From the IMG/VR virus record IMGVR_UViG_3300020175_000016, positions 1 to 40,018 of that record: a DNA stretch of 40,018 nt; one strand, written 5' to 3'. Positions 1 to 31,600 of the stretch are shown one piece after another. The translations under genes were made by a program, and so were the position numbers. Source of the DNA: a virus. The notes below the pieces were generated by a model that did not search any database, was not told the origin of the DNA, and saw only the letters and a program-made list of their open reading frames with translations. Numbering within the stretch: position 1 is the first letter of the stretch; each line of letters begins with the position of its first letter.

Positions 1-576
1 AACGAAACAGTTTTACATTTAATAGAAACAACTGAAGAGGTTAAGTCTATGATTAAAAAAATGGAAGATGAGTTAGTTGAATGTACTGACCCTGTGTTAA
101 CTGTTAAGTTAGAAAAAAGATTAGCTAGGTTATCTGCTAAAGTAGCTATTGTAAAAGTAGGTGCTAACTCTGAAGTTGAGTTGCAAGAAAAACAAGCTAG
201 AGTTGAAGATGCTATATGTGCAACTAAAGCCGCTATCAAACAAGGTATAGTTCCTGGTGGTGGTATCGCTTTATTAAATGCAGCAAATGATATAGAAACT
301 AGTAACAAGTCTGAAGAAGCGTTGCTAGAGGCCATTAAGGCACCTTTTAAGACCATCTTACACAATGCAGGTATAGAAGAATACGAAATGCCAAGTATAA
401 CAGGAGATGGAATAAATGTAGTTACAGGAAATATGGTAAATATGATTGAGTCAGGGATTATTGATCCTTTACTCGTAACGAAAAGCGCATTAAACAATGC
501 TGCTTCAGTTGCTACTACTATTTTGTCAACTGATTGTGTAATCAATAATTTAAGAATTGATGAAAGCAATAGGTAG
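1..576 (+). CDS. groEL: Phage chaperonin GroEL, C-terminal part (5' end outside window)
   Basis: This is the C-terminal part of a 60-kDa chaperonin. The frame is open from base 1, so the gene starts upstream; the ATG at 49 is internal. Visible GroEL landmarks are the KVAIVKVGA strand, RVEDAICATK (the Asp codon at 208-210 matches the ATP-hydrolysis Asp398 of E. coli), the PGGGIAL loop of the equatorial domain, and SGIIDPLLVTKSAL, whose Asp matches the nucleotide-binding Asp495. The piece starts at about E. coli residue 330. It ends soon after the TDCVI strand, so the usual Gly-Gly-Met tail is missing, and the loop before VNMIESGIIDP is shorter than in E. coli. The ATP-site residues visible here are intact, which suggests an active folding ring, perhaps for capsid or tail proteins. 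groES follows and overlaps it, the reverse of the usual bacterial order. Confidence 0.93.
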   Translation, partial: NETVLHLIETTEEVKSMIKKMEDELVECTDPVLTVKLEKRLARLSAKVAIVKVGANSEVELQEKQARVEDAICATKAAIKQGIVPGGGIALLNAANDIETSNKSEEALLEAIKAPFKTILHNAGIEEYEMPSITGDGINVVTGNMVNMIESGIIDPLLVTKSALNNAASVATTILSTDCVINNLRIDESNR

Positions 577-820
577 AAACTTAGTGGTTAAAATATCGAA
601 AGCCGGTATATCTAAAACTCAAGGTGGTTTACTTTTGGGTGAAAAACAAAGAGAAGATATAAGATATGCTGAAGGAACCGTGGTAACAGCAGGAGCTGAG
701 GCTGGTGGTTTAAAAGAAAACGATGTGATTTATTTTGATAAAAATAATTCGCATCAAATAGAAGTTAAAGATGAAATTTACAACGTAGTTAAAGTTGACA
801 ACGTTGTTATTGTTTTATGA
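560..820 (+). CDS. groES: Phage co-chaperonin GroES
   Basis: This 86-residue protein has the GroES pattern: an N-terminal strand (GRNLVVKI), a mobile loop (SKTQGGLLLGE, where the hydrophobic LLL takes the place of the IVL tripeptide that docks on GroEL), then EGTVVTAGA, KENDVIYFD and a final VDNVVIVL strand. It should cap the GroEL ring encoded just upstream. A TTG at 557 is in frame, but the ATG at 560 gives the standard GroES N-terminus and is preferred. The start overlaps the groEL end by 17 bases and the stop overlaps the next gene as ATGA, so the three genes are probably translationally coupled. The roof-loop region is shorter than in bacterial GroES. The family call is firm; the pairing with the upstream GroEL is inferred from adjacency. 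Confidence 0.92.
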   Translation: MKAIGRNLVVKISKAGISKTQGGLLLGEKQREDIRYAEGTVVTAGAEAGGLKENDVIYFDKNNSHQIEVKDEIYNVVKVDNVVIVL

Positions 821-1260
821 GACTAGAACCCACAGATATTAGGGAATTAAATCTTTTAAAACATTATAGAATCATCAGAAAGTGGGCTTGCAAGAATTAT
901 GATTTAAATGATGCAGACCTTGAATTACTAATATACTTCGATTGCATGGATCTTTTCACTAGAGAAGATTTTAAAATCGGTACATATTCTTATAGTTGGG
1001 ACAACAGACGCTGGAACAGATTACTTAAAGAAGGTTGGATAACGGTATGGAGAAAACATAACCGCACAACCCAAAAGTATAATATCTATAAAGTTTCCTT
1101 TAAGTGTAAACAACTAATAAGTCGAATGTACCGTATTATGCTTGGTACTGAGGATATACCTACAAGTGCACATCGAAACAAAATAATGAAGGGTAAAACC
1201 TATATGGATAAAGTTATGATTACATCCATTAATAATGTTAACAAAGATAAAAACCGATAA
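817..1260 (+). CDS. Winged-helix-like protein of unknown function
   Basis: This 147-residue basic protein is probably a DNA-binding winged-helix protein of the general MarR shape. Helical segments (about residues 10-60, with KHYRIIRKWACKNYDL and LNDADLELLIYF) are followed by a recognition-helix-like stretch (SWDNRRWNRLLKEGWI) and a beta-hairpin wing (VWRKHNRTTQKYNIYKVSF). That order (helices, 'RLLKEGWI', then a charged hairpin) is typical of winged-helix readers. The fold is inferred from pattern only. It starts inside the groES stop codon (ATGA), so it belongs to the chaperonin transcript. It may be a regulator or a DNA-binding structural protein; no ligand-binding or catalytic feature is evident. 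Confidence 0.6.
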   Translation: MRLEPTDIRELNLLKHYRIIRKWACKNYDLNDADLELLIYFDCMDLFTREDFKIGTYSYSWDNRRWNRLLKEGWITVWRKHNRTTQKYNIYKVSFKCKQLISRMYRIMLGTEDIPTSAHRNKIMKGKTYMDKVMITSINNVNKDKNR

Positions 1261-4838: not shown

Positions 4839-5126
4839 ATGGCAAAATTTATTTCAATTCCATCAAGCGGTTCGGGAATCGCAGGTGGTGACATCCTAGT
4901 AGGTGCAGACTTAATAACAGGAGTAGTTCAAGCAAGTTCTACTACTGTAGTTATCTATTTAGCAGGAGGTGCTGGTGGAGATGTGTGTACAATTACTCAC
5001 GGCACAGTTAGCAAACCTTCAGTAAGAGATGCAGTTAACTATGCATTAACAGCTAATCCTGGAGGCGTAAAAGCTAAAGTTAAACTTCCTTCTGGAATAG
5101 AAGTTTCAGGAGTAGTATTCGCTTAA
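4839..5126 (+). CDS. Small beta-rich putative virion protein
   Basis: This 95-residue protein is dominated by Val, Ile, Ala, Gly, Ser and Thr with no cluster of charge, as in phage decoration or head proteins. Strands appear at the start (AKFISIPS), middle (TTVVIYLAG, DVCTITHG) and end (KAKVKLPSGIEVSGVVFA), with one helix (SVRDAVNYALTAN). I recall similar small proteins in marine phages but no assigned function. It has one of the longest spacers in the region (45 bases), made almost only of A, C and T (CAACAA-type), typical of an unstructured leader for a well-translated gene. The stop overlaps the next start as TAATG. Confidence 0.65.
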   Translation: MAKFISIPSSGSGIAGGDILVGADLITGVVQASSTTVVIYLAGGAGGDVCTITHGTVSKPSVRDAVNYALTANPGGVKAKVKLPSGIEVSGVVFA

Positions 5127-5278
5127 TGAAACCAAAAGGCTTAGGTGATAGAATAGAAGATTTCACTAAAGCAACTGGTATTAAAAAAGTTGTTGATTCA
5201 GTGTCACAGGGTTTAAACATACCCTGTGGCTGTCAACAGCGTAAAGAAAAACTTAATAAATTATTTCCTGGAAAGTAA
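5126..5278 (+). CDS. Very small CGC-x2-R protein
   Basis: This 50-residue gene is coupled at both ends through TAATG overlaps, so it is very probably translated. The sequence has a helical first half (GLGDRIEDFTKATGIKKVVD) and a second half with PCGCQQRKEKLNKLFP. The CGC pair followed by Arg-Lys-x-Lys-Leu-Asn-x-Leu-Phe-Pro is a pattern I recall in small marine phage proteins. Two cysteines per chain could hold a metal in a dimer, or be redox active. Function is unknown. It sits directly before the small HExxH protein and the holin-like gene. Confidence 0.72.
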   Translation: MKPKGLGDRIEDFTKATGIKKVVDSVSQGLNIPCGCQQRKEKLNKLFPGK

Positions 5279-5586
5279 TGGCTTTTAAAATTAATCCACC
5301 ATACGTTATAGACAACACCCCGATTTACAATGTAGATTTAGAGGATGGTGTGTTAGGAAAAGCAGACAGAAACGGAAGTATTTTAATAAATAAAAATATT
5401 AAAGATCCAAAACAAATTGAAGATGTCGTTAGGCATGAGAAAGTTCATATTGATCAAATGAAACGAGGAGATTTGGATTATGATGATAGTGCAGTTTACT
5501 GGAGAGGTAAACGTTATTCAAGAAAAACAATGGAGGAAGGTGCTAAAAACCTACCTTGGGAAAAAGAAGCTTATGCCAAATCCTAA
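5278..5586 (+). CDS. Small HExxH metallopeptidase-like protein
   Basis: This 102-residue protein contains a zincin motif, RHEKVHIDQ, with His53, Glu54 and His57. A Glu at 95 or 97 in LPWEKEAY could be the third zinc ligand, as in gluzincins where an acidic residue lies downstream. The first 45 residues are a short beta-rich segment (NGSILINKNI). There is no signal peptide. The size is minimal for a peptidase, so activity is not assured, but motif and helix context (VVRHEKVHIDQMKRGDL) are convincing. It begins with MAFK and overlaps the preceding gene as TAATG; its end overlaps the holin-like gene by 14 bases. It may act in lysis, in virion maturation, or as a structural zinc protein. Confidence 0.7.
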   Translation: MAFKINPPYVIDNTPIYNVDLEDGVLGKADRNGSILINKNIKDPKQIEDVVRHEKVHIDQMKRGDLDYDDSAVYWRGKRYSRKTMEEGAKNLPWEKEAYAKS

Positions 5587-6034
5587 AAAAAAATTTAAAG
5601 ACACAACAGTAGGTAAACTATTATTCGGTGCTGCATCATTAGTTAACCCTGCATTAGGCAGTGTGTTAAGTGGTGTAACTTCACCTGCTGAAGCTATTGC
5701 TGCTATCGGTAAATCTGATGTAAGTGGTGAAGACAAAATAAAATTACAACAGCTTATATTTGAACAACAGAATAAAGAAATGGAAGCTGTTACATCAAGA
5801 TGGCAAGCTGATTCAATATCAGATTCATGGCTTTCTAAAAACGTGCGCCCATTAGTTTTAGTGTGGTGTATTGTTATATTCTCACTAGCTGGAATATTAG
5901 ATAGCGTGGAATCAATACCATTTAACATAGGTGTTACATGGAACGATACATTTGAAAAAGTAATGATGGCTGTTGTTTTAGCATATTTTGGCGGGCGCAC
6001 AACTGAAAAAGCTACAAGTTTATTTAAAAAATAA
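5573..6034 (+). CDS. Holin-like membrane protein (3TM holin family resemblance)
   Basis: Two hydrophobic segments are visible in this 153-residue protein: NVRPLVLVWCIVIFSLAGIL (about 93-112) and VMMAVVLAYFGG (about 131-142). The N-terminal LLFGAASLVNPALGSVLSG is a third, weaker one. The pattern 'WLSKNVRPLV...' followed by '...FGGRTTEK' resembles the phage/GTA 3TM holin family. It would open the inner membrane for the endolysin at 2303. The frame is open from 5480, but the ATG at 5573 is chosen because the extra 31 codons lie inside the HExxH gene and are Lys/Trp-rich without hydrophobic character. From the chosen start the overlap is 14 bases. Confidence 0.75.
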   Translation: MPNPKKKFKDTTVGKLLFGAASLVNPALGSVLSGVTSPAEAIAAIGKSDVSGEDKIKLQQLIFEQQNKEMEAVTSRWQADSISDSWLSKNVRPLVLVWCIVIFSLAGILDSVESIPFNIGVTWNDTFEKVMMAVVLAYFGGRTTEKATSLFKK

Positions 6035-6072
6035 ATAAAACCTGTAACTATATTAATAAATAAATAATTAAG

Positions 6073-6092
6073 TTAAATTAAATTAAATTAAA
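6073..6092. repeat. (TTAAA)4 tandem repeat before a start codon
   Basis: Four perfect TTAAA units end one base before the ATG at 6094. They lie in a 59-base AT-only leader after the holin-like gene. An A/T leader is normal for this genome, but the exact repetition is not seen at other starts. Confidence 0.8.
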
Positions 6093-6093
6093 A

Positions 6094-6336
6094 ATGGAAA
6101 TTAAAAAAGACCAATTAGAAAAAATCCAAGGATTTCAAAAAGAATTAAACAAATTGTTAAATGAAACTGGATTTTTAGAAGCCCAAAAAACCGCGGTATT
6201 ATCTAAGTTTCACGAAGTTAATCAGGAAACTGAAGACTTCAAAAAAGAACTTGAAGAAGAGTACGGATCGATTAACATTAATCTTGAAGACGGTACTTAC
6301 ACTCCTATCGAAAAAGAAGAAGACAAAAAGGAGTAA
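6094..6336 (+). CDS. Small acidic coiled-coil protein
   Basis: This 80-residue, mostly helical, acidic protein has a heptad-like pattern from about 3 to 55 (LEKIQGFQKELNKLL, then VLSKFHEVNQ and FKKELEEEYG). It ends with a short hairpin ININLEDGTYTPI and an acidic tail. I recall similar proteins in many marine phages, always small and without assigned function. A prefoldin-like or assembly-chaperone role is possible given the GroES-like genes nearby, but that is speculation. The stop overlaps the next start as TAATG. Confidence 0.7.
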   Translation: MEIKKDQLEKIQGFQKELNKLLNETGFLEAQKTAVLSKFHEVNQETEDFKKELEEEYGSININLEDGTYTPIEKEEDKKE

Positions 6337-6563
6337 TGTCATCTGTTATTAGAAAGATCAGTATAGGATCTGATTACAAAACAGATGCTATGCATTATTC
6401 TTTGACTCAGTCGGTATATGGAGGTCACACTATATCTCATATACTCTTTGATTCAAAAGATAATTCTTATAACATTTACATTAAAAAGAACAGCGAAGTA
6501 TTGCCGTGGAAGAAGTTTAATTCTAACATGGCAATATCAGTTGAATATGATTTAGAATACTAA
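6336..6563 (+). CDS. Small conserved phage protein, unknown
   Basis: This 75-residue protein begins IRKISIGSDYK, has AMHYSLTQSVYGG, and ends WKKFNSNMAISVEYDLEY. The layout of alternating strands suggests a small all-beta domain. It matches a pattern I remember from marine phages (an IRKIS-G-DYK start and a WK-FN-x-M end), but no function is known to me. It is joined to both neighbours by TAATG overlaps, which ties its expression to the tandem GroES-like protein that follows. Confidence 0.7.
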   Translation: MSSVIRKISIGSDYKTDAMHYSLTQSVYGGHTISHILFDSKDNSYNIYIKKNSEVLPWKKFNSNMAISVEYDLEY

Positions 6564-7168
6564 TGAAAAGTATATTTGATTTTATCGTTGAGCCTTATGG
6601 CCAGCGATATAATAATGAAGTTAAAGTAGGTGACAAAAGCCTTATAATTAACACTCAATCAGAAAGTTTTAAATCAGTAAATAATATAGCTAAAGTTATA
6701 GCGGTACCAAAAGCATTTAAAACACCTATTAAAAAAGGTGATTTAATTATGATACATCATAATGTGTTTAGAAGATTTTATGATATACGAGGTGAAGAAA
6801 AAAATAGTAGATCGTATTTTAAAAATGGTTTATATTTTGTTCAATTAAATCAAGTATATTTATACAAATCTAAAGACAGGTGGAAAGCTTTTGGTGATAG
6901 ATGCTTTATAAGTCCAATTCATAACAATGATGATATAGACGCTAATTTAGAAGAACGCCTTGTTGGTATATTAAAATATGGTAATAGTTCATTAGAAGCG
7001 TTAAAAATCAACGAGGGAGACCTTGTAGGTTATTCACCGTTTGGTGAGTTTGATTTTGTAGTTGATGGCAAGCGTCTTTATTGTATGAAATCAAATGATA
7101 TTGTAATTAAGTATGAACGTCAAGGAAACGAAACAGAATATAATCCTAGCTGGGCACAAAGCAGTTGA
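6563..7168 (+). CDS. Tandem GroES-like protein (putative second co-chaperonin)
   Basis: This 201-residue protein reads as two GroES-type beta-barrels in a row. Repeat 1 (about 1-102) has IFDFIVEPYGQRY, an AKVIAVPKAF strand, PIKKGDLIMIHHNVF and LNQVYLYK. Repeat 2 (about 106-185) has DRCFISPI, LVGILKYG, KINEGDLVGYSP, then VDGKRLYCMKSNDIVIKY. The signatures 'x-GD-x-hhhh' followed by 'DG-x-x-LY-x-M-x-S-x-DI-x-hK' match GroES, where the end is 'EEVLIMSESDILAIVE'. Between strands of repeat 1 a charged loop (about 75-90) could replace the mobile loop. No obvious GGLLL-type docking tripeptide is present. It follows conserved small genes by TAATG and lies just before the packaging genes. The GroES fold is a motif-based inference. 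Confidence 0.65.
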   Translation: MKSIFDFIVEPYGQRYNNEVKVGDKSLIINTQSESFKSVNNIAKVIAVPKAFKTPIKKGDLIMIHHNVFRRFYDIRGEEKNSRSYFKNGLYFVQLNQVYLYKSKDRWKAFGDRCFISPIHNNDDIDANLEERLVGILKYGNSSLEALKINEGDLVGYSPFGEFDFVVDGKRLYCMKSNDIVIKYERQGNETEYNPSWAQSS

Positions 7169-7388
7169 GGAACTTATTAAGGTAGCAAAAGAAGCTATAG
7201 TTGATTCTGATGATGATATATCAGCTGATAGATTAAAAAACGCTGCTGCAACTAAAAAGTTAGCTATATTTGATGCTTTTGAAATACTAAATCGTATTAA
7301 AGAAGAAGAGGATATGTTAAATGATAAACCAAAAGAAGAAAAGAAAACTGAAGCTTTTGGAGGTTTTGCAGAAAGAAGATCTAAGTAA
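7113..7388 (+). CDS. Putative small terminase subunit
   Basis: This 91-residue, helix-rich protein has two runs: ILAGHKAVEELIKVAKEAI (about 11-29) and RLKNAAATKKLAIFDAFEIL (about 40-59), with a Lys/Glu-rich tail. It lies immediately before the large terminase (TAATG overlap), the classic place for TerS. I see no clear helix-turn-helix, so the assignment rests mainly on position and size. The start overlaps the GroES-like gene by 56 bases. No later Met exists before about residue 68, so this long overlap seems real. The alternative is a conserved small phage protein of another role. Confidence 0.5.
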   Translation: MNVKETKQNIILAGHKAVEELIKVAKEAIVDSDDDISADRLKNAAATKKLAIFDAFEILNRIKEEEDMLNDKPKEEKKTEAFGGFAERRSK

Positions 7389-9592
7389 TGTATAAGCAAA
7401 CGTTATATAAAGTAATTGATCACATAAAACCTCATGTAATAAAAAGATTAAATAAATCTAAAAAGTGGGATTATGGTTATAACAAAGAACATGATGTTAT
7501 TGTTATATCTAAAACAGGTCAGATAGGTGAGATATACGAAATACAAAACTTAAAAATAGCATTACCAAAAGAGAAAGATGTTAACAAGGATTATGACAAA
7601 TGGCAAGTACATGAATATCCTAAAACATTAAAAAAAATTAAAACAATATTTGACTGGAAACAATATCCAGATGATTTTAAAGAAAAATGGTATGGGTATA
7701 TTGATAGAGAATTTGCTAGGCGCCACGAAGGTTACTGGTTCATTAATCAGGGTAAAGCTACTTATATTACTGGTACTCATTACATGTACCTGCAGTGGTC
7801 CAAGATTGATGTTGGGCAAGCAGATTTTAGGGAAGCAAACAGATTATTCTTTATATTCTGGGAAGCTTGTAAAGCAGATAAACGTTGCTACGGAATGTGC
7901 TACCTCAAAAACAGACGGTCTGGTTTTTCATTCATGGCATCAGGCGAAACTGTCAACCTTGCCACTATCTCTAGTGATGCTAGATACGGTGTATTATCAA
8001 AGTCTGGGGCTGATGCAAAGAAAATGTTTACCGATAAAATCGTACCAATTTCCGTCAACTATCCGTTTTTCTTCAAACCGATTCAAGACGGTATGGATCG
8101 ACCGAAAACAGAACTTGCATACAGAGTTCCTGCTAGTAGATTTACAAGACGTAAACTAGATAGCAATGAACAGTTAGAAGAATTAGAAGGATTAGATACA
8201 ACTATTGACTGGAAGAATACAGGAGACAACAGTTATGATGGTGAAAAATTAAAATTACTTGTACACGATGAATCTGGTAAGTGGGAAAAACCTGATAATA
8301 TATTAAACAACTGGAGGGTTACAAAAACTTGTTTACGATTAGGTTCTAGAATTATAGGTAAGTGTATGATGGGTTCAACGTCGAATGCTTTAGATAAAGG
8401 AGGTAGAAATTATAAAAAATTGTATGATGACTCAGACGTTACCAGAAGAAACCGCAACGGGCAGACTAGCTCGGGATTATATAGCTTGTTCATTCCTATG
8501 GAGTGGAATTACGAAGGATACATTGATTCTTATGGATTACCTGTCTTTGAGACACCGGAAGAACCTAAAAAAGGGCCAGATGGTTTCCCCATTGAAATCG
8601 GTGTTATCGAACACTGGGAAAACGAAGTAGATGGCCTTAAGAATGATCCTGATGCACTTAATGAATTATATAGACAGTTTCCACGTACAGAGAAACATGC
8701 TTTCAGAGATGAAACAAAACAATCACTGTTTAATCTTACAAAAATCTATGAACAAATAGATTATAATGAAGATTTAAAACACTCAAATGTTGTTACACAG
8801 GGTAATTTTATGTGGGAAGGTGGGATTAAAGATACAAGCGTTCAATTTGTTCCTAGTAAACAAGGTAGGTTTATAGTGTCTTGGGTTCCAGATGTTCAAC
8901 AACAAAATAGATTTATTATTAAAAATGGTATGAAGTATCCTGCTAATGAGCATATGGGTGCTTTTGGTTGTGATAGTTATGATATATCAGGAACTGTAGA
9001 TGGTAGAGGATCTAAAGGTGCGTTGCACGGTTTAACTAAGTTTACTATGGATACTTGTCCACCTAACTTATTTTTTTTAGAATATATAGCTAGACCACAA
9101 ACTGCTGAAACATTTTTTGAAGATGTGCTTATGGCTTTACATTTTTATGGTATGCCCATATTAGCAGAGAATAATAAACCTAGATTATTATATCATTTAA
9201 AAAGAAGAGGTTATAGAGGTTACTCTATGAACAGACCAGACAAAACAGCATATAAATTATCTGTAACGGAAAAAGAAATAGGTGGTATACCTAATTCAAG
9301 TGAAGATGTTAAGCAAGCTCATGCCGCAGCTATTGAATCTTATATTGAAATGTTTATAGGATATAATAATGAGCAGTATGGAACAATGTATTTTCAAAGA
9401 ACATTAGAAGATTGGGCTGCATTTGATATAAATAAAAGAACAAAACATGATGCATCTATAAGCTCTGGTTTAGCTATCATGGCTTGCAATAAAAATAAAT
9501 ATAGACCTATACCGGAACATATAAAAGAAAAAGTAAGTTTAAGTTTTTCTAAGTATGACAACAAAGGTTCAAAATCAAAAATAATTAATTAG
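7388..9592 (+). CDS. Terminase large subunit (DNA packaging ATPase/nuclease)
   Basis: This 734-residue packaging motor protein has the expected two-domain order. The ATPase begins near HYMYLQWSKID (131-141). A diverged Walker A lies at about 173-187 (LKNRRSGFSFMASGE), and Walker B is LKLLVHDESGKW with Asp294 and Glu295. A coupling region follows (GKCMMGSTSN, about 324-332). The nuclease domain starts at GCDSYDISG (Asp529), with FLEYIARP (Glu) and a late KHDASISSG (Asp) supplying the other RNase H-type acids. The Walker A has Arg-Arg-Ser-Gly-Phe-Ser rather than GxGKS/T, as in some phages of Bacteroidota. It cuts and pumps DNA into the prohead through the portal encoded next. Length is on the long side for TerL. 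Confidence 0.88.
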   Translation: MYKQTLYKVIDHIKPHVIKRLNKSKKWDYGYNKEHDVIVISKTGQIGEIYEIQNLKIALPKEKDVNKDYDKWQVHEYPKTLKKIKTIFDWKQYPDDFKEKWYGYIDREFARRHEGYWFINQGKATYITGTHYMYLQWSKIDVGQADFREANRLFFIFWEACKADKRCYGMCYLKNRRSGFSFMASGETVNLATISSDARYGVLSKSGADAKKMFTDKIVPISVNYPFFFKPIQDGMDRPKTELAYRVPASRFTRRKLDSNEQLEELEGLDTTIDWKNTGDNSYDGEKLKLLVHDESGKWEKPDNILNNWRVTKTCLRLGSRIIGKCMMGSTSNALDKGGRNYKKLYDDSDVTRRNRNGQTSSGLYSLFIPMEWNYEGYIDSYGLPVFETPEEPKKGPDGFPIEIGVIEHWENEVDGLKNDPDALNELYRQFPRTEKHAFRDETKQSLFNLTKIYEQIDYNEDLKHSNVVTQGNFMWEGGIKDTSVQFVPSKQGRFIVSWVPDVQQQNRFIIKNGMKYPANEHMGAFGCDSYDISGTVDGRGSKGALHGLTKFTMDTCPPNLFFLEYIARPQTAETFFEDVLMALHFYGMPILAENNKPRLLYHLKRRGYRGYSMNRPDKTAYKLSVTEKEIGGIPNSSEDVKQAHAAAIESYIEMFIGYNNEQYGTMYFQRTLEDWAAFDINKRTKHDASISSGLAIMACNKNKYRPIPEHIKEKVSLSFSKYDNKGSKSKIIN

Positions 9593-11965
9593 ATGATTAA
9601 TACGAGTACTAATAGTTCCTTTCCTAGTCAGGTGGTACCTGTCGCGGAAAAGCTTAGTTTAGAGTATGGTCTGCAAGTAGGGCAAGCCATTGAATATGAA
9701 TGGTTTAGAGGTGGTAGAGTTAATGGAACAAGATGGCAGAAAGGGTTTCAAAACTTTAACAGGTTAAGATTATACGCTAGAGGTGAGCAACCTGTGCAAA
9801 AATATAAAGATGAATTATCAATTAATGGTGATTTATCTTATTTAAACTTAGACTGGAAGCCAGTGCCAATAATTCCAAAGTTTGTTGATATTGTAGTAAA
9901 CGGTATATCTTCTAAAAAATACGATATAAAAGCATATGCTCAAGATCCTTTTTCTTTAAAACAAAGAACAAATTATGCTTCGTCTATATTAAGAGACATG
10001 TTATCTAAGCCTTTACTTAATAGTATACAAGAAAACTTAGGGGTAGATGTTTATAATGTAGTTGATCCAGCTAATTTACCACAATCAAAGGAAGAGTTAG
10101 AAGTGCATATGCAATTAAACTATAAACAATCTATAGAAATTGCTGAAGAAGAAGTTATTAATAATGTATTAGATTTTAATAAATACGAATTAATTAACAA
10201 AAGAGTTATAGAAGATATAGTAACAGTTGGTATTGGAGCTGTTAAAACTAGTTTTAATAAAGCTGAAGGTGTTAAAATAGACTATGTTAATCCTTCTAAT
10301 TTAGTTTATTCATATACTAACGATCCTAATTTTCAAGACCTATATTATGTAGGTGAAATAAAATCTATAACACTACCTGAGTTAAAAAAAGAATTTCCTA
10401 ATTTAACTAACGAAGAGCTTAAAACAATACAAAAGTATCCTGGTAGAGAAGGTTATATGCGTAACCGTAATAACGATGATGATTTAGTACAGGTTATATA
10501 TTTTGAATACAAATCTTATATAGATCAAGTTTTTAAAGTTAAAAACACTGATAATGGTTTAGAAAAAGTATTAGAAAAACCTGATACATTTAATCCGCCA
10601 GAAAGTGATAATTTTGAAAGAGTATCTAGAACAATAGAAGTATTGTTTACAGGTGCTAAAGTTATGGGTGTAGAACAAATGCTTAAATGGGAAATGTCAG
10701 AAAACATGACAAGACCTAAGAGTGATTTAACTAAGGTTAATATGAACTACAATATTGTAGCGCCTCATATGTATCAAGGTCGTATAGATTCACTTGTAGG
10801 ACGTATAACTGGTTTTGCTGATATGATACAACTTACATCACTTAAATTACAACAGGTGATTGCTAGAATGGTTCCAGATGGTGTCTTTGTAGATGTTGAT
10901 GGTTTATCTGAAGTTGATTTAGGTAATGGAACTAATTATAATCCTCAGGAAGCATTAAACATGTATTTCCAAACTGGTAGTATAGTTGGTAGAAGTTTAA
11001 CACAAGATGGTGATCCTAATAGAGGTAAAGTACCTATACAAGAATTACAAACATCTAGTGCTAATGGAAAAATACAATCGTTGATCAACACTTATCAGTA
11101 TTATTTACAAATGATAAGAGACGTAACAGGATTGAACGAAGCAAGAGATGGCAGTTTACCAGACAAAGACGCGTTGGTCGGCTTGCAAAAAATGGCTGCC
11201 AATGCTTCTAACATAGCAACTAAACATATTTTAAATAGTAGTTTATATTTAACGCTTAGAACTTGTGAAAACATATCGCTTAGAATAGCTGATATGTTAG
11301 ATTTTGATTTAACTAATAATGCACTTAAAGCTAGTATAGGTAAATTTAATGTTGCAACACTACATGAAATAGATGATTTACATTTATATGATTTTGGTAT
11401 ATACATGGATTTAGAACCTGAAGAAGAAGAAAAAGCTATGTTAGAACAAAATATACAAATGGCTTTACAGCAAAATCAAATATACCTTGAAGATGCTATT
11501 GACATTAGAGAAATAAGAAACTTAACTTTAGCTAATCAAGTTTTAAAATACAAGAGAGGGGAAAAGCAAGAAGCTGATCAACAAGCTCAAATGGCTAATA
11601 TTGCTGCTCAAGCAGATTCTAATTCAGAAGCTTCAGAAAAAGCTTCAATGCAAGAAGTGCAAAAAGGAGAGGCATTAGCACAGACTGAAATACAAATTGA
11701 GCAAGCTAAGTCTCAAATGGAAATACAGAGAATGCAACAAGAGCTACAAAACAAACAACAGTTAATGGCTAAAGAGTTTGAGTACAACATGAAACTTAAA
11801 CAAATGGAAGTTGATGCGTCAACAAAAAAAGAAGCTCAAATAGAAGATCGTAAAGATAAACGAACTAAAATACAAGCTTCTCAACAATCACAAATGATTA
11901 CACAACGTCAAACAGACGGGTTACCTACTGATTTTGAAAACAACATGGAAGAGTTAAGTATGTAA
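9593..11965 (+). CDS. Portal protein
   Basis: This 790-residue protein directly follows the terminase with no gap. The N-terminal half contains WKPVPIIPKFVDIVVNG (about 83-99), the 'find-and-fix' helix pattern of portals. The central region is mixed alpha/beta, with VIARMVPDGVFVDVDG and a long helix around MIRDVTGLNEARDGS typical of the portal crown. From about 640 it is a long Gln/Glu/Lys-rich coiled coil (QQAQMANIAAQADSNSEA, then repeated MQ/EIQ units) that could form the inner barrel. It is larger than T7 gp8 (536) and close to P22 gp1 (725) in size. It forms the dodecameric DNA channel. Order terminase-portal-scaffold-capsid supports the call. Confidence 0.85.
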   Translation: MINTSTNSSFPSQVVPVAEKLSLEYGLQVGQAIEYEWFRGGRVNGTRWQKGFQNFNRLRLYARGEQPVQKYKDELSINGDLSYLNLDWKPVPIIPKFVDIVVNGISSKKYDIKAYAQDPFSLKQRTNYASSILRDMLSKPLLNSIQENLGVDVYNVVDPANLPQSKEELEVHMQLNYKQSIEIAEEEVINNVLDFNKYELINKRVIEDIVTVGIGAVKTSFNKAEGVKIDYVNPSNLVYSYTNDPNFQDLYYVGEIKSITLPELKKEFPNLTNEELKTIQKYPGREGYMRNRNNDDDLVQVIYFEYKSYIDQVFKVKNTDNGLEKVLEKPDTFNPPESDNFERVSRTIEVLFTGAKVMGVEQMLKWEMSENMTRPKSDLTKVNMNYNIVAPHMYQGRIDSLVGRITGFADMIQLTSLKLQQVIARMVPDGVFVDVDGLSEVDLGNGTNYNPQEALNMYFQTGSIVGRSLTQDGDPNRGKVPIQELQTSSANGKIQSLINTYQYYLQMIRDVTGLNEARDGSLPDKDALVGLQKMAANASNIATKHILNSSLYLTLRTCENISLRIADMLDFDLTNNALKASIGKFNVATLHEIDDLHLYDFGIYMDLEPEEEEKAMLEQNIQMALQQNQIYLEDAIDIREIRNLTLANQVLKYKRGEKQEADQQAQMANIAAQADSNSEASEKASMQEVQKGEALAQTEIQIEQAKSQMEIQRMQQELQNKQQLMAKEFEYNMKLKQMEVDASTKKEAQIEDRKDKRTKIQASQQSQMITQRQTDGLPTDFENNMEELSM

Positions 11966-13193: not shown

Positions 13194-14672
13194 ATGGGAC
13201 AAATTGCTCCAGTGTTTGGAAGTATCGTACCTTCTCAAACGCAACTACCGCTAGCTAACAATTACCTAGCGTTTAATACTGCTGCTGCAGGTGCAAATGA
13301 TTTCGCACAACAGTATCTACCAGAGGTTTATGAAGCTGAAGTAGAAAGATATGGAAACAGAACTTTAGGTGGTTTCTTAAAAATGGTTGGCGCTGAAATG
13401 CCAATGACGTCTGATCAAGTTATCTGGTCAGAACAAAATAGATTACACATCTCTTATACAGGATGTACATTAACAGGACCTGGTGCTGGAACTTTCGTTT
13501 TCAGTGTACCTACTAATGCTGCTGTTGGTGCAACTTCTATTAAAAATGCAATTGCTCCTAACGATACTATCGTTGTAATGAACCCAACTACTGGCGTTAC
13601 ATTAAAAGGTATTGTAGGTGCTGTAGCTGCAAATGGTGCTTTAACAAACGTTACTGCTTATCCATTTACAACTGCTAACTGGGATACTTTAGGTATTGCT
13701 GCTGCTGCAGGTGCTGCTGGATTAAAGATATTCGTTTACGGTTCTTTATTTGCTAAAGGAACTGGAAGTGGAAACTTTTCAGTACAGCCACAATTTACTC
13801 AATACTCTAATCAACCAATCATAATCAAAGATAGATTTGAAATTAATGGTTCTGATATGGCACAGATTGGATGGGTAGAAGTTGCTACAGAAGACGGAAC
13901 ATCAGGATACTTATGGTATTTAAAGTCTGAGTCTGAAACAAGATTACGTTTTGACGATTACTTAGAAATGGCAATGGTTGAAGGAGAATTAGCTGCTGCT
14001 GCTAGTGGTTTCACTGCTCAAGCTGCTAACGTACCTGGATTCTCAGCTACTATTAATGCTCATGGTACTGAAGGTCTTTTCCAAGCTATTACTAATAGAG
14101 GTAATATCATGAGTGGATTCCAAGGTGCTACAGGTATTTCTGATTTCGATCAAATACTTAAAAACCTTGACACACAAGGTGCTATTGAAGAAAACATGTT
14201 ATTCTTAAATAGAGATACAGACTTAGAGTTTGATGACATGCTAAGCCAAATTTCTGCAGGACAATCTGGAGGAACTGCTTACGGTTTATTTGAAAATTCT
14301 GAGGATATGGCTTTAAATTTAGGTTTCTCTGGTTTCAGAAGAGGTTCTTATGACTTCTACAAAACAAGCTGGAAATACTTAAATGACGCTTCAACAAGAG
14401 GTGCGGTAGCTGTAAACAATATCGATGGTGTATTAATTCCTGCGGGAACTTCTACAGTTTATGACCAAATTTTAGGTACAAACATTAGAAGACCATTCTT
14501 ACACGTAAGATATAGAGCTTCTCAAGGAGATGACAGAAGATACAAAAACTGGATCACTGGTACTGCTGGTGGTGCTTACACTTCTGAAATTGACTCGATG
14601 ATCGTAAACTGGTTATCAGAGAGATGTTTAGTTACTCAAGCTGCTAATAACTTCGTGTTATTCCAAAGCTAG
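13194..14672 (+). CDS. Major capsid protein
   Basis: This 492-residue protein follows the scaffold and is the best candidate for the shell subunit. The N-terminal 50 residues are flexible, then AEVERYGNRTLGGFLKMVGAE starts a long helix like the spine helix of HK97-fold proteins. A beta-rich Ala/Gly/Thr insertion (about 88-195) may be a surface domain. Later helices (SETRLRFDDYLEMAMVEGELAA) and the last strand region (LHVRYRASQGDDRRYK) match capsid P- and A-domain layout. Codon choice here uses more C-ending codons than its neighbours, and the gene has its own strong terminator, both signs of very high expression. The family is inferred from order, size and fold pattern. Confidence 0.8.
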   Translation: MGQIAPVFGSIVPSQTQLPLANNYLAFNTAAAGANDFAQQYLPEVYEAEVERYGNRTLGGFLKMVGAEMPMTSDQVIWSEQNRLHISYTGCTLTGPGAGTFVFSVPTNAAVGATSIKNAIAPNDTIVVMNPTTGVTLKGIVGAVAANGALTNVTAYPFTTANWDTLGIAAAAGAAGLKIFVYGSLFAKGTGSGNFSVQPQFTQYSNQPIIIKDRFEINGSDMAQIGWVEVATEDGTSGYLWYLKSESETRLRFDDYLEMAMVEGELAAAASGFTAQAANVPGFSATINAHGTEGLFQAITNRGNIMSGFQGATGISDFDQILKNLDTQGAIEENMLFLNRDTDLEFDDMLSQISAGQSGGTAYGLFENSEDMALNLGFSGFRRGSYDFYKTSWKYLNDASTRGAVAVNNIDGVLIPAGTSTVYDQILGTNIRRPFLHVRYRASQGDDRRYKNWITGTAGGAYTSEIDSMIVNWLSERCLVTQAANNFVLFQS

Positions 14673-28600: not shown

Positions 28601-31600
28601 AAATAAGAGAAACTAAATCTCAAAATATTGTAGTGCATGAGGTTGGTCATAAAATAGTTTTAAATCAATTAAAAGATTTAAATGGAAATTTAACATCTTC
28701 TGGTGAAAGAATTCTTACACAATTTAAAGAACTAATACCACAACAGCAAAGAAAAATAGTTGAAAGCGCTTTGAAGAGAAATTATAAAAATGATTCTAAA
28801 AGTAAACAATTAGAAGAATTTTTTACAATATTTAGTGAAAAATTTGCTGATGGTGAAATTATTTTACCAGGTGAAACGAGAAAAATAGAAGGAATAAATA
28901 ATGCTTCAGATTTACTTAATCTTGTTAGAAGAGTACAAGGTGAACTTGGTCTTATATATGATGGTAAAACAGATAAGTTTAGTGCTAACTTACTTGAAGC
29001 AATAGAACTTGGTGCTAAAAATGCTAAAGTAGAAGGAGCTCAGTATAAAAAAATAGAATTTGATCCTAAAACAAAATTATCTTTACAGATAAACCCATTG
29101 GTTACAACAGAAACGGTAGTTGATTTTCAAAAAAGAGATTATTTTAATATATCAGAAAATATTAGAAATGGATCATTTGATCTTTTAATGCCAGAAGGTT
29201 TAAATTCAAAACAAAGAGAAATAATAAGAGAAAGACTTAGTGAAAGATTAATTAATTACGATCCATCTAAATCTGCTTTAAACACTTGGCTTATAAACAA
29301 TATTGAATTCTCTAGAAAAGATGCAAATAAAAGATTGTATGAAGAAAGTAAAGGGCCTGATTATTTAGAAGAAAACTATAAAGAAGCCGCTTCTGTTTTA
29401 GATGGTCAAAACACTTTTGAAATATCAGGTGAAGCTCCAGCTTTACAAAGATCTACAATTAAAAAAATATTAAATTTACAACCTACTGAAATAGACAATG
29501 TAAAACGTAGTATAGCTAAAATTGTATTTGGTAAAGAATCAGTTCAAGGTTTAGAAAATTTAACTAGAAAAGATATACAATCTATAAGACAAGAGTTTTT
29601 AAAATCTGAAACAGGTGATGGAACTAAAATTAGAAAAATAGTTTTAAATAAAATAAATGAACTTGGTAAAAATGGTCTGTCAACAACTAGTGGTGTAGAA
29701 TTAGTTCATAGTGGTATTTCTTTATCAAGAATGTCAAACTCTTTAAAAGGTGGTGGTAAAGGTTATGATATATTTTTAGAGCCAGTGTTGAAAGAAAATG
29801 GAGAACAAGCTAGATATAGTGTAGAAGAAGCTAATAAATTAGGTATAGCACTAGATAAAAGTGGTTCAGGACCTTTGAAATATAAGAAAAGACCATTAAG
29901 TGATTTTATAAAAGATGGTGTGCCTACGCAAGAATACTTGAATTGGATACAAGGAAAAGATATAGCTTCAGGTGCAAGAGGTAGAAAAAATTCATTAGTA
30001 AATGAAATAACAGGTGAACTTGGTATGGAAGCAATGCTTTCAACAATGGTAGATCAAAAAATTGTTATACCACCTGTATTAGATGTTAATGGTAAAGTTA
30101 TAGAACCTGCAAGAACAGAAGATTTATTTCCAAACGCTACACCTGAACAAAAAATAAAAATGGCAACAGATGCTATTGTAAATTTTGTAGGTGATAAGGT
30201 TTCTAGAGTTTATAAAAATACTCAAAACTTGTTATATTCTAAAAAAGATTTTACTAAGTTTAATGCAGATATACAAGGTATAACCGGTAAAGATGGTCTT
30301 ATAGACATGACCAAGTTTGCTGAAATATTTAATAAACAAGGTAAAGATTTTCAAAAACTATTTAATGAATCACTACCTGGTAATGATTTTGTAGCTTATA
30401 TAAATAGTTTAAATGTTAAAAAAATAGAGGAAATGTTGCCTCTGTTAGAAACAGAACTAAAAAAAGGTAGTCCAGAGTATTATGCTGAAGTTGCTAACGT
30501 TTTAAAAGAACAAACAAACTTTAAAAGATATTTAAACAAAATAGGTGTAGAATATACTCCAGAAAAAGATTTAGTTAAGCCTGAGTTTAATGCTGATGGA
30601 ACAAAAAATTCTCAAAATATAGTTAGAACCAAAGGTTGGATGAAAAGCTTTATAAAACAATTTGGACCTTGGGGTGAATTAACAAAAACACAGCAAAACT
30701 ATATACTTGGAACTGTTGGGTTTGGAAAAAACTTAAGAAAAGAATTAGGTTTAGTTAAAGGTGATAGAACTAGAGAGCAAATGTTAATTGACGCTTTTGG
30801 AAAAGACGTATTAACAGGTGAAAGAACAGTTGAACTACCTGATGTGTATCAGGTTGCTTATAATCAAACTACTAAAACTAAATTTGAAGAACTAATAAAG
30901 GATAAAGACAAGTATACGCCTAAAGAGTTAAGAGATAAAATGGTAAAGCTTTTAATACCTAAAGGAAAAGGTGTTGAGTATTTTGAAACAATGGTTGCTA
31001 ACAATACTAAAGCTGTTAATTCAACTTTAGAAGGTTTTTTAAATATGTATGAAAAAAGCTCTAATAAAACTAGAACTTTTGAAGATATTACCAACATGTT
31101 AAAATTACAGACAAATCACAATTCTGGTATAAAAGGTTTGTTTCCTATAACTTCTATTCTTTTAGAAGCAAAAGGATCTGTTAATAAAAAAGGTGAAATA
31201 ACTAATAAAAAATTACACTTTGAACATAATAAAGAATTATTTAATTTTAGTAAATCTTTTCTTGAAATACTAAAAAGCGATAGAACTTTAGAAGCTAAAA
31301 AAGAATTAATAGAAAAATTATCTAAAGATGCTACTCAATCTATAATAAGTGAGCAAATGAGGTTTGAAAAAGATGCTGATGGAAGAACTGTGTCTGGTTC
31401 TTTAGATGCAGATATGGCAACTTATGGATATAGAGAAGGTGCAGCTGGAAACGCAATAGATCTTTTAAATCCTTATGGTGGAACTGTAGCTCAAAAAATA
31501 CAAAATAAATTAAAAACAAAAATTGTAAATAATTTAATAAAATTAGATACTAAAGGTAATAAAAATATAATTATGCCAAAACCTGAAAATGGTTTGATTT

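Follow-up and report, generated by a model that had tools for sequence, protein, structure and literature searches.

The window, a stretch of 40,018 bases that makes up IMG/VR virus record IMGVR_UViG_3300020175_000016, has its left edge inside a gene and opens with chaperonin genes on the forward strand. The first frame (1..576, +) encodes the C-terminal 191 aa of a GroEL (Pfam Cpn60_TCP1, 6.4e-23; phrog_5725, 3.8e-45), i.e., the end of the intermediate domain and the second half of the equatorial domain, with the 5' part of the gene lying past the contig edge. It is followed by groES (560..820, +; 86 aa), recognized by Pfam Cpn10 (1.6e-10), by phrog_3188 and by an alignment of 103 family sequences, and the two genes overlap by 17 nt (560..576, +), from the groES ATG at 560 to the groEL stop at 574-576. 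The next frame, a 147-aa ORF with no assigned function (817..1260, +; phrog_17028), begins in an ATGA that creates a 4-nt overlap with the groES stop; judging from this sequence, it is probably carried on the same transcript as groES, and it might be part of the chaperonin operon.

Farther along the forward strand is a second co-chaperonin-like gene (6563..7168, +; 201 aa), a predicted tandem Cpn10 on the basis of its match to phrog_13932 'co-chaperonin GroES' (1.7e-24) and of an AlphaFold2 model. The genes beyond it encode the terminase large subunit (7388..9592, +; phrog_6681, 4e-162), the portal protein (9593..11965, +; phrog_6547, 1.2e-143) and a virion structural protein of 492 aa and 52.8 kDa (13194..14672, +; phrog_13704, 7.5e-94). 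An M15 endolysin and a holin are also present downstream of groES, as is a ribonucleotide reductase on the opposite strand, and an Rfam scan of the window found no RNA family.

The region preceding groEL is available in L003, the closest of the long records in which the gene is complete, where long ORFs resembling tail-fibre genes, one of them with a Peptidase_S74 chaperone domain, lie upstream. In many family members a run of AAATT/AAATC/CAATC pentamers abuts the groEL ATG (4980-5019 in L003, with equivalents in L005, L007, L048 and L052), and there is no obvious Shine-Dalgarno sequence there; the run is possibly an AT-rich translation leader of the flavobacterial type.

Completeness and altered surfaces of the phage GroEL

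With two thirds of the window groEL beyond the contig, statements about the whole protein rest on L003, which is 99% identical to the window groEL across their common part, and on 85 other family members. That the locus holds a phage-borne GroEL-GroES pair, as proposed in an earlier note on this DNA, is borne out by the Cpn60 and Cpn10 matches, by the match of the window frame to positions 338-533 of the 540 in the phage GroEL profile phrog_5725, and by the recovery of about 100 such loci. In L003, groEL (5020-6576) is an uninterrupted frame of 518 aa, and residues 7-512 of its product align to solved GroELs with E-values down to 4e-113, which amounts to the full three-domain length. By its sequence, the family protein is a Group I chaperonin (GroEL/Cpn60).

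The 86 loci with a complete gene encode GroELs of 514-521 aa, and dN/dS among close relatives (0.045-0.11) denotes purifying selection. Because the relatives are intact, confined to this narrow length range and low in dN/dS, the early end of the window frame is the true end of a selected protein, and we can rule out that it represents a fragment or a truncated pseudogene, a reading that the earlier note had named as fatal to its proposal. One family contig (L063, the same as L096) has a groEL broken at about residue 285, which is intact in its relatives; the break is probably a frameshift or an assembly error.

Retention of the ATP-site residues, first noticed in the window, extends to the entire family: D52, D87, D398 and GGG414-416 are invariant in all 86 complete members, and the remaining ATP/Mg residues (TTT89-91 and D495) are kept in L003, in which they were checked. 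P33 is changed to A in all family members. Overall, the protein appears from these residues to be ATP-competent.

The window frame terminates in ...CVINNLRIDESNR with no GGM repeat, and the early end that had been remarked upon there recurs in every complete family member (86 of 86 lack the Gly-Gly-Met tail). In the three members measured, only 1-6 residues extend beyond E. coli position 525, as against 15-38 in bacteria, and 75 of 80 bacterial GroELs possess the tail (5 do not). But the tail is also missing from 10 of the 11 other phage GroEL records sampled, so its loss is ordinary in phage GroELs; we therefore reject it as a special trait, and the earlier suggestion that it signals adaptation to particular clients cannot be sustained. 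The lone phage record with a GGM tail (L267; PQ520251), named Enterococcus phage IME_EF3, is an unverified 6.2-kb sequence containing a groES-groEL pair, and its DNA looks bacterial.

The equatorial domain is shortened in three places. The stretch corresponding to residues 461-478, i.e., the loop before the last helices that was originally described as short, has 12-15 aa in the family (mostly 13-15, and 13 in L003) versus 18-19 in 79 of the 80 bacterial GroELs. The stretch at 424-445 has 14-15 residues rather than the 20-24 of bacteria, and that at 100-115 has 13-15 rather than the 16 found in all 80 bacterial proteins, with the region of A109 changed. In E. coli GroEL, residues near 109, 452, 461, 463 and 464 form the contacts between rings; the family has lost or substituted S463 and V464, and in place of R452 it mostly has K, N or Y. 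With the equatorial loops cut back, these contacts would be weakened or rebuilt, and it is conceivable, although we lean against it, that the family GroEL works as single rings or as a double ring that dissociates; loop shortening by itself is no proof of single rings.

Changes also occur in the apical domain. At positions 199, 203, 234, 263 and 264, which bind both clients and GroES, bacteria have Y, Y, L, V and V almost without variation, and the family mostly has L, H, Q, A and M. Both F204 and L237 are retained.

Order of the two genes

The earlier note had called attention to groEL preceding groES, the reverse of the bacterial operon, and to their 17-base overlap, and both features are real. 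The bacterial controls were the 80 loci with the nearest bacterial GroELs, and of the 75 in which a groES was found, 74 have it upstream of groEL. The single exception is that of the planctomycete Candidatus Brocadia (L213), with groES about 200 nt downstream of groEL. The phage order and arrangement were found again in about 100 loci, nearly all of them on other contigs, and such recurrence shows that the arrangement did not arise by chance: all family loci containing both genes have groEL and then groES, and in the usable loci groES is directly downstream.

The overlap itself is 17, 20, 4 or 1 nt in different family members. In its 17-nt form it encodes (D)ESNR* in the groEL frame and MKAIGR in the groES frame, and the additional GroEL residues DESNR exist because groEL continues, out of frame with groES, into the conserved start ATGAAAGCAATAGG of that gene; where groEL terminates at the groES start, its product ends in NNLRA. 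We considered whether the 17-nt overlap is the functional main point of the locus and rejected this, since its length varies and it dictates only about five tail residues.

The same gene order is common to Elemovirus (the elemo phages of Flavobacterium), Maribacter phage Panino and the isolate ctfjg026. The groES of Panino (L085:5671-5937) is annotated as hypothetical and was recognized downstream of groEL by a PHROG profile. A BLAST search of the window GroES against phages returned no matches because the protein is short and divergent, and the partner GroES genes were recovered by PHROG profiles. In a tree built without the longest jumbo-phage branches, a single branch (SH-aLRT 95.9) separates the window family, Elemovirus, Panino and ctfjg026 from the other sequences, such that the groEL-groES order requires a single change, and this gene-order clade is present in the best quick tree; all of these are quick trees, and the long branches of ctfjg026, Panino and EL call for caution.

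GroES, a putative second co-chaperonin and the probable role of the chaperonin

The window GroES scores 41.3 bits against the Pfam Cpn10 model (cut-off 21.1). Its mobile loop, KTQGGLLLGEKQREDIRY, is kept, and the consensus kTkGGLLLae is conserved across the family alignment of 103, whereas the roof beta-hairpin has undergone a deletion of about nine residues, seen in the displayed members as well as the family consensus. The dN/dS values for groES range from 0.07 to 0.14.

For the product of the gene at 6563-7168, an AlphaFold2 model based on 48 sequences (pLDDT 85.4, pTM 0.80) predicts two Cpn10 folds in tandem, with domain 1 at about residues 1-104 and domain 2 at about residues 105-186. When the whole model was searched against the PDB, only 7ekq_R and 7ekq_Q, which are Cpn20-type chains of about 200 residues, matched below 0.001, and they aligned end to end; single Cpn10 chains cover about half of the model. 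Folded alone, domain 1 reaches a pLDDT of 89.9, and its best 27 PDB matches are all GroES/Cpn10, with weak E-values (0.0085 and up). Profile comparison against bacterial GroES gave 90% for domain 2 (2.7% when reversed) and 12.9% for domain 1 (0.1% when reversed), from which we consider the Cpn10 assignment to be firm for domain 2, for which sequence and model agree, and to derive from predicted structure for domain 1. Domain 1 has a conserved hydrophobic loop, GDKSLIINT, at the position expected of a mobile loop, making it a candidate for one; the corresponding loop of domain 2 is acidic, is modelled with low confidence and has no obvious mobile-loop motif. The dN/dS of the tandem gene is 0.11-0.26, and annotators already label phage genes of this type cpn10 or GroES.

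Taken together, we think it likely that the locus supplies a tailed phage of flavobacteria with a functional Group I chaperonin, which folds phage proteins with the aid of two co-chaperonins. Heptameric GroEL rings would bind phage clients through the altered apical surface, and GroES would cap the ring by means of its mobile loop, in which GGLLL is conserved. Without the roof hairpin and the GroEL tail the cage would be roomier, as in the case of T4 gp31 and the capsid protein gp23, and the tandem protein would serve as a second, specialized lid, or as the component of a lid, for clients in head assembly. Under this scheme, the chaperonin would be kept for virion assembly during infection. 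Judged by size and position only, the 52.8-kDa virion protein (13194-14672) is a candidate client. In the related phage phi38:1, GroEL is produced in infected Cellulophaga and was detected by mass spectrometry in free-virion samples (PMC13288928). The broader idea that this chaperonin is adapted to its clients thus stands as plausible, grounded in the apical substitutions, the roofless GroES and the second co-chaperonin-like gene, which support it better than the features first cited.

The tandem protein may not bind GroEL, given that domain 1 is Cpn10 by predicted structure only and that no mobile-loop motif is obvious in domain 2. It could instead be a head-assembly or packaging factor of co-chaperonin ancestry that has lost chaperonin binding, an explanation compatible with our proposal for groEL and groES and one to which we assign a substantial, if minority, share of the probability. 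The gene lies 3-8 kb downstream in those family contigs that reach that far, and its place beside the terminase is constant in several phage lineages: it is directly before the terminase gene, or separated from it by one small ORF, in the window, ctfjg026, Panino, elemo and phi18:3, and the unrelated myovirus immuto does not have it. Moreover, Cellulophaga phage phi18:3 (NC_021794; L276) has both a GroES gene (31108-31362) and a tandem-Cpn10 gene (41458-42060), and no GroEL anywhere in its whole record, demonstrating that two lids can occur without a phage chaperonin. Its GroES and tandem protein may serve the host GroEL, and pairing with a phage GroEL may not be obligatory. Against loss of chaperonin binding are the hydrophobic loop of domain 1, conserved where a mobile loop is expected, and the fact that the tandem gene accompanies a GroES in the genomes checked.

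A more elaborate version of the two-lid proposal, which we regard as speculative and rather unlikely, is that a naturally single-ring, tail-less GroEL has a choice of two lids, one being the ordinary roofless GroES and the other an asymmetric tandem Cpn10 in which just one mobile loop of each pair works, and that the cage is opened, or docked at the site of head assembly, by this second lid.

It is also possible, albeit improbable, that this GroEL acts in the manner of those of jumbo phages EL, OBP and AR9, preventing aggregation or folding proteins with no co-chaperonin, and that the adjacent groES serves the GroEL of the host. The missing tail and the changed inter-ring region are reminiscent of phage chaperonins that do not need GroES (PMC7185714, PMC9598537), and phi18:3 does have a GroES and no GroEL. 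However, groEL and groES overlap and co-occur across the family; its GroELs are closer to those of bacteria (37-41% identical) than to those of EL or AR9 (about 24%); and the GroES mobile loop is conserved together with GroEL residues F204 and L237.

GroEL is a generalist in bacteria, and the pair might accordingly be an auxiliary stress module that supports the proteome of the infected host and not specific phage proteins. We judge this to be less probable still, in that the genes are situated between tail-fibre and lysis/packaging genes, and the surface that binds clients and GroES is fixed at residues other than those seen in bacterial controls, which points to a changed specificity.

Descent and relation to known systems

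Relatives identified by terminase, GroEL and the tandem protein infect Flavobacterium, Cellulophaga, Maribacter and Tenacibaculum, and the window family, a large group of marine tailed phages, is predicted to have flavobacterial hosts. A recent capture of a flavobacterial groEL, for which these predicted hosts would be suitable donors, has next to no likelihood and is rejected, in that the best bacterial match to the family is 41% identical (range 37-41%) and that a quick tree places the family in a single clade (support 100) separate from that of the bacteria; the near-identical host groEL that would have undercut the earlier note was thus not encountered among bacterial GroELs. Of the jumbo-phage chaperonins, these trees covered EL and AR9, which occupy branches separate from the family.

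Phage GroELs in this group were already known: GroEL was reported in 2017 from the phi38:1 group, in 36 genomes of marine phages (Nishimura 2017, PMC5332604), cpn10 is a core gene of the Pervagoviridae (PMC8776804), and the description of Panino mentions GroEL and GroES (PMC11590407). Apparently new are the reversed gene order as the mark of a lineage, the shortening of certain parts and a double lid. Tandem Cpn10 has been described as chloroplast-specific (PMC5780408), and an open-licence literature search turned up no paper describing it in phages. As such, the locus is not a new system, and the tandem protein is a probable new component; if its predicted structure is correct, it would be a second occurrence of this design, outside of plastids. 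The lineage also bears on why some phages encode an entire chaperonin and others only its lid, with phages that have GroES, the double lid and GroEL forming a natural contrast to phi18:3, which has both lids and no GroEL; for several of these phages there are laboratory hosts. The differences at client grip, roof and ring interface, all of them conserved, yield direct and testable predictions of how the needs of virus assembly may retune a chaperonin.

Of the known systems, phi38:1 and Calle (Pervagoviridae) resemble the family in having a Group I chaperonin in flavobacterial podoviruses, without a GGM tail, with a 12-aa inter-ring stretch and with GroES and a tandem protein in the same genome; they differ in gene order (groES, one gene, groEL), in sequence (36-38% identity) and in occupying a separate branch nearer to bacteria. 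Elemovirus, Panino and ctfjg026 share the missing tail, a roof-poor GroES and a tandem gene at or near the terminase, but their GroELs are 35-40% identical to those of the family, and their two genes have a spacing of a few nt, a 1-nt overlap or a small ORF between them; elemo and ctfjg026 have kept an 18-aa inter-ring stretch. The jumbo phages EL and AR9 likewise encode GroEL-like proteins with no GGM tail (OBP also encodes a GroEL-like protein), and EL, OBP and AR9 are reported to work without a co-chaperonin (PMC7185714, PMC9598537). No groES was found near the groEL of AR9 or EL, whereas the family, which belongs to a different clade and is only about 24% identical to them, has a groES gene.

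The closest counterpart of the family GroES is T4 gp31, which also has a mobile loop and no roof loop, and whose lack of a roof loop and larger chamber are thought to permit folding of the 56-kDa capsid protein (PMC6318259). Unlike gp31, which uses the GroEL of its host, the family groES overlaps a phage groEL, and its product is clearly Cpn10 by sequence. For the tandem protein, the best structural match to the predicted model is chloroplast Cpn20, in which two GroES folds are likewise arranged head to tail; the protein considered here differs in being encoded by phages, in having only about 15% identity to Cpn20 and in a domain 2 that apparently lacks a mobile loop.
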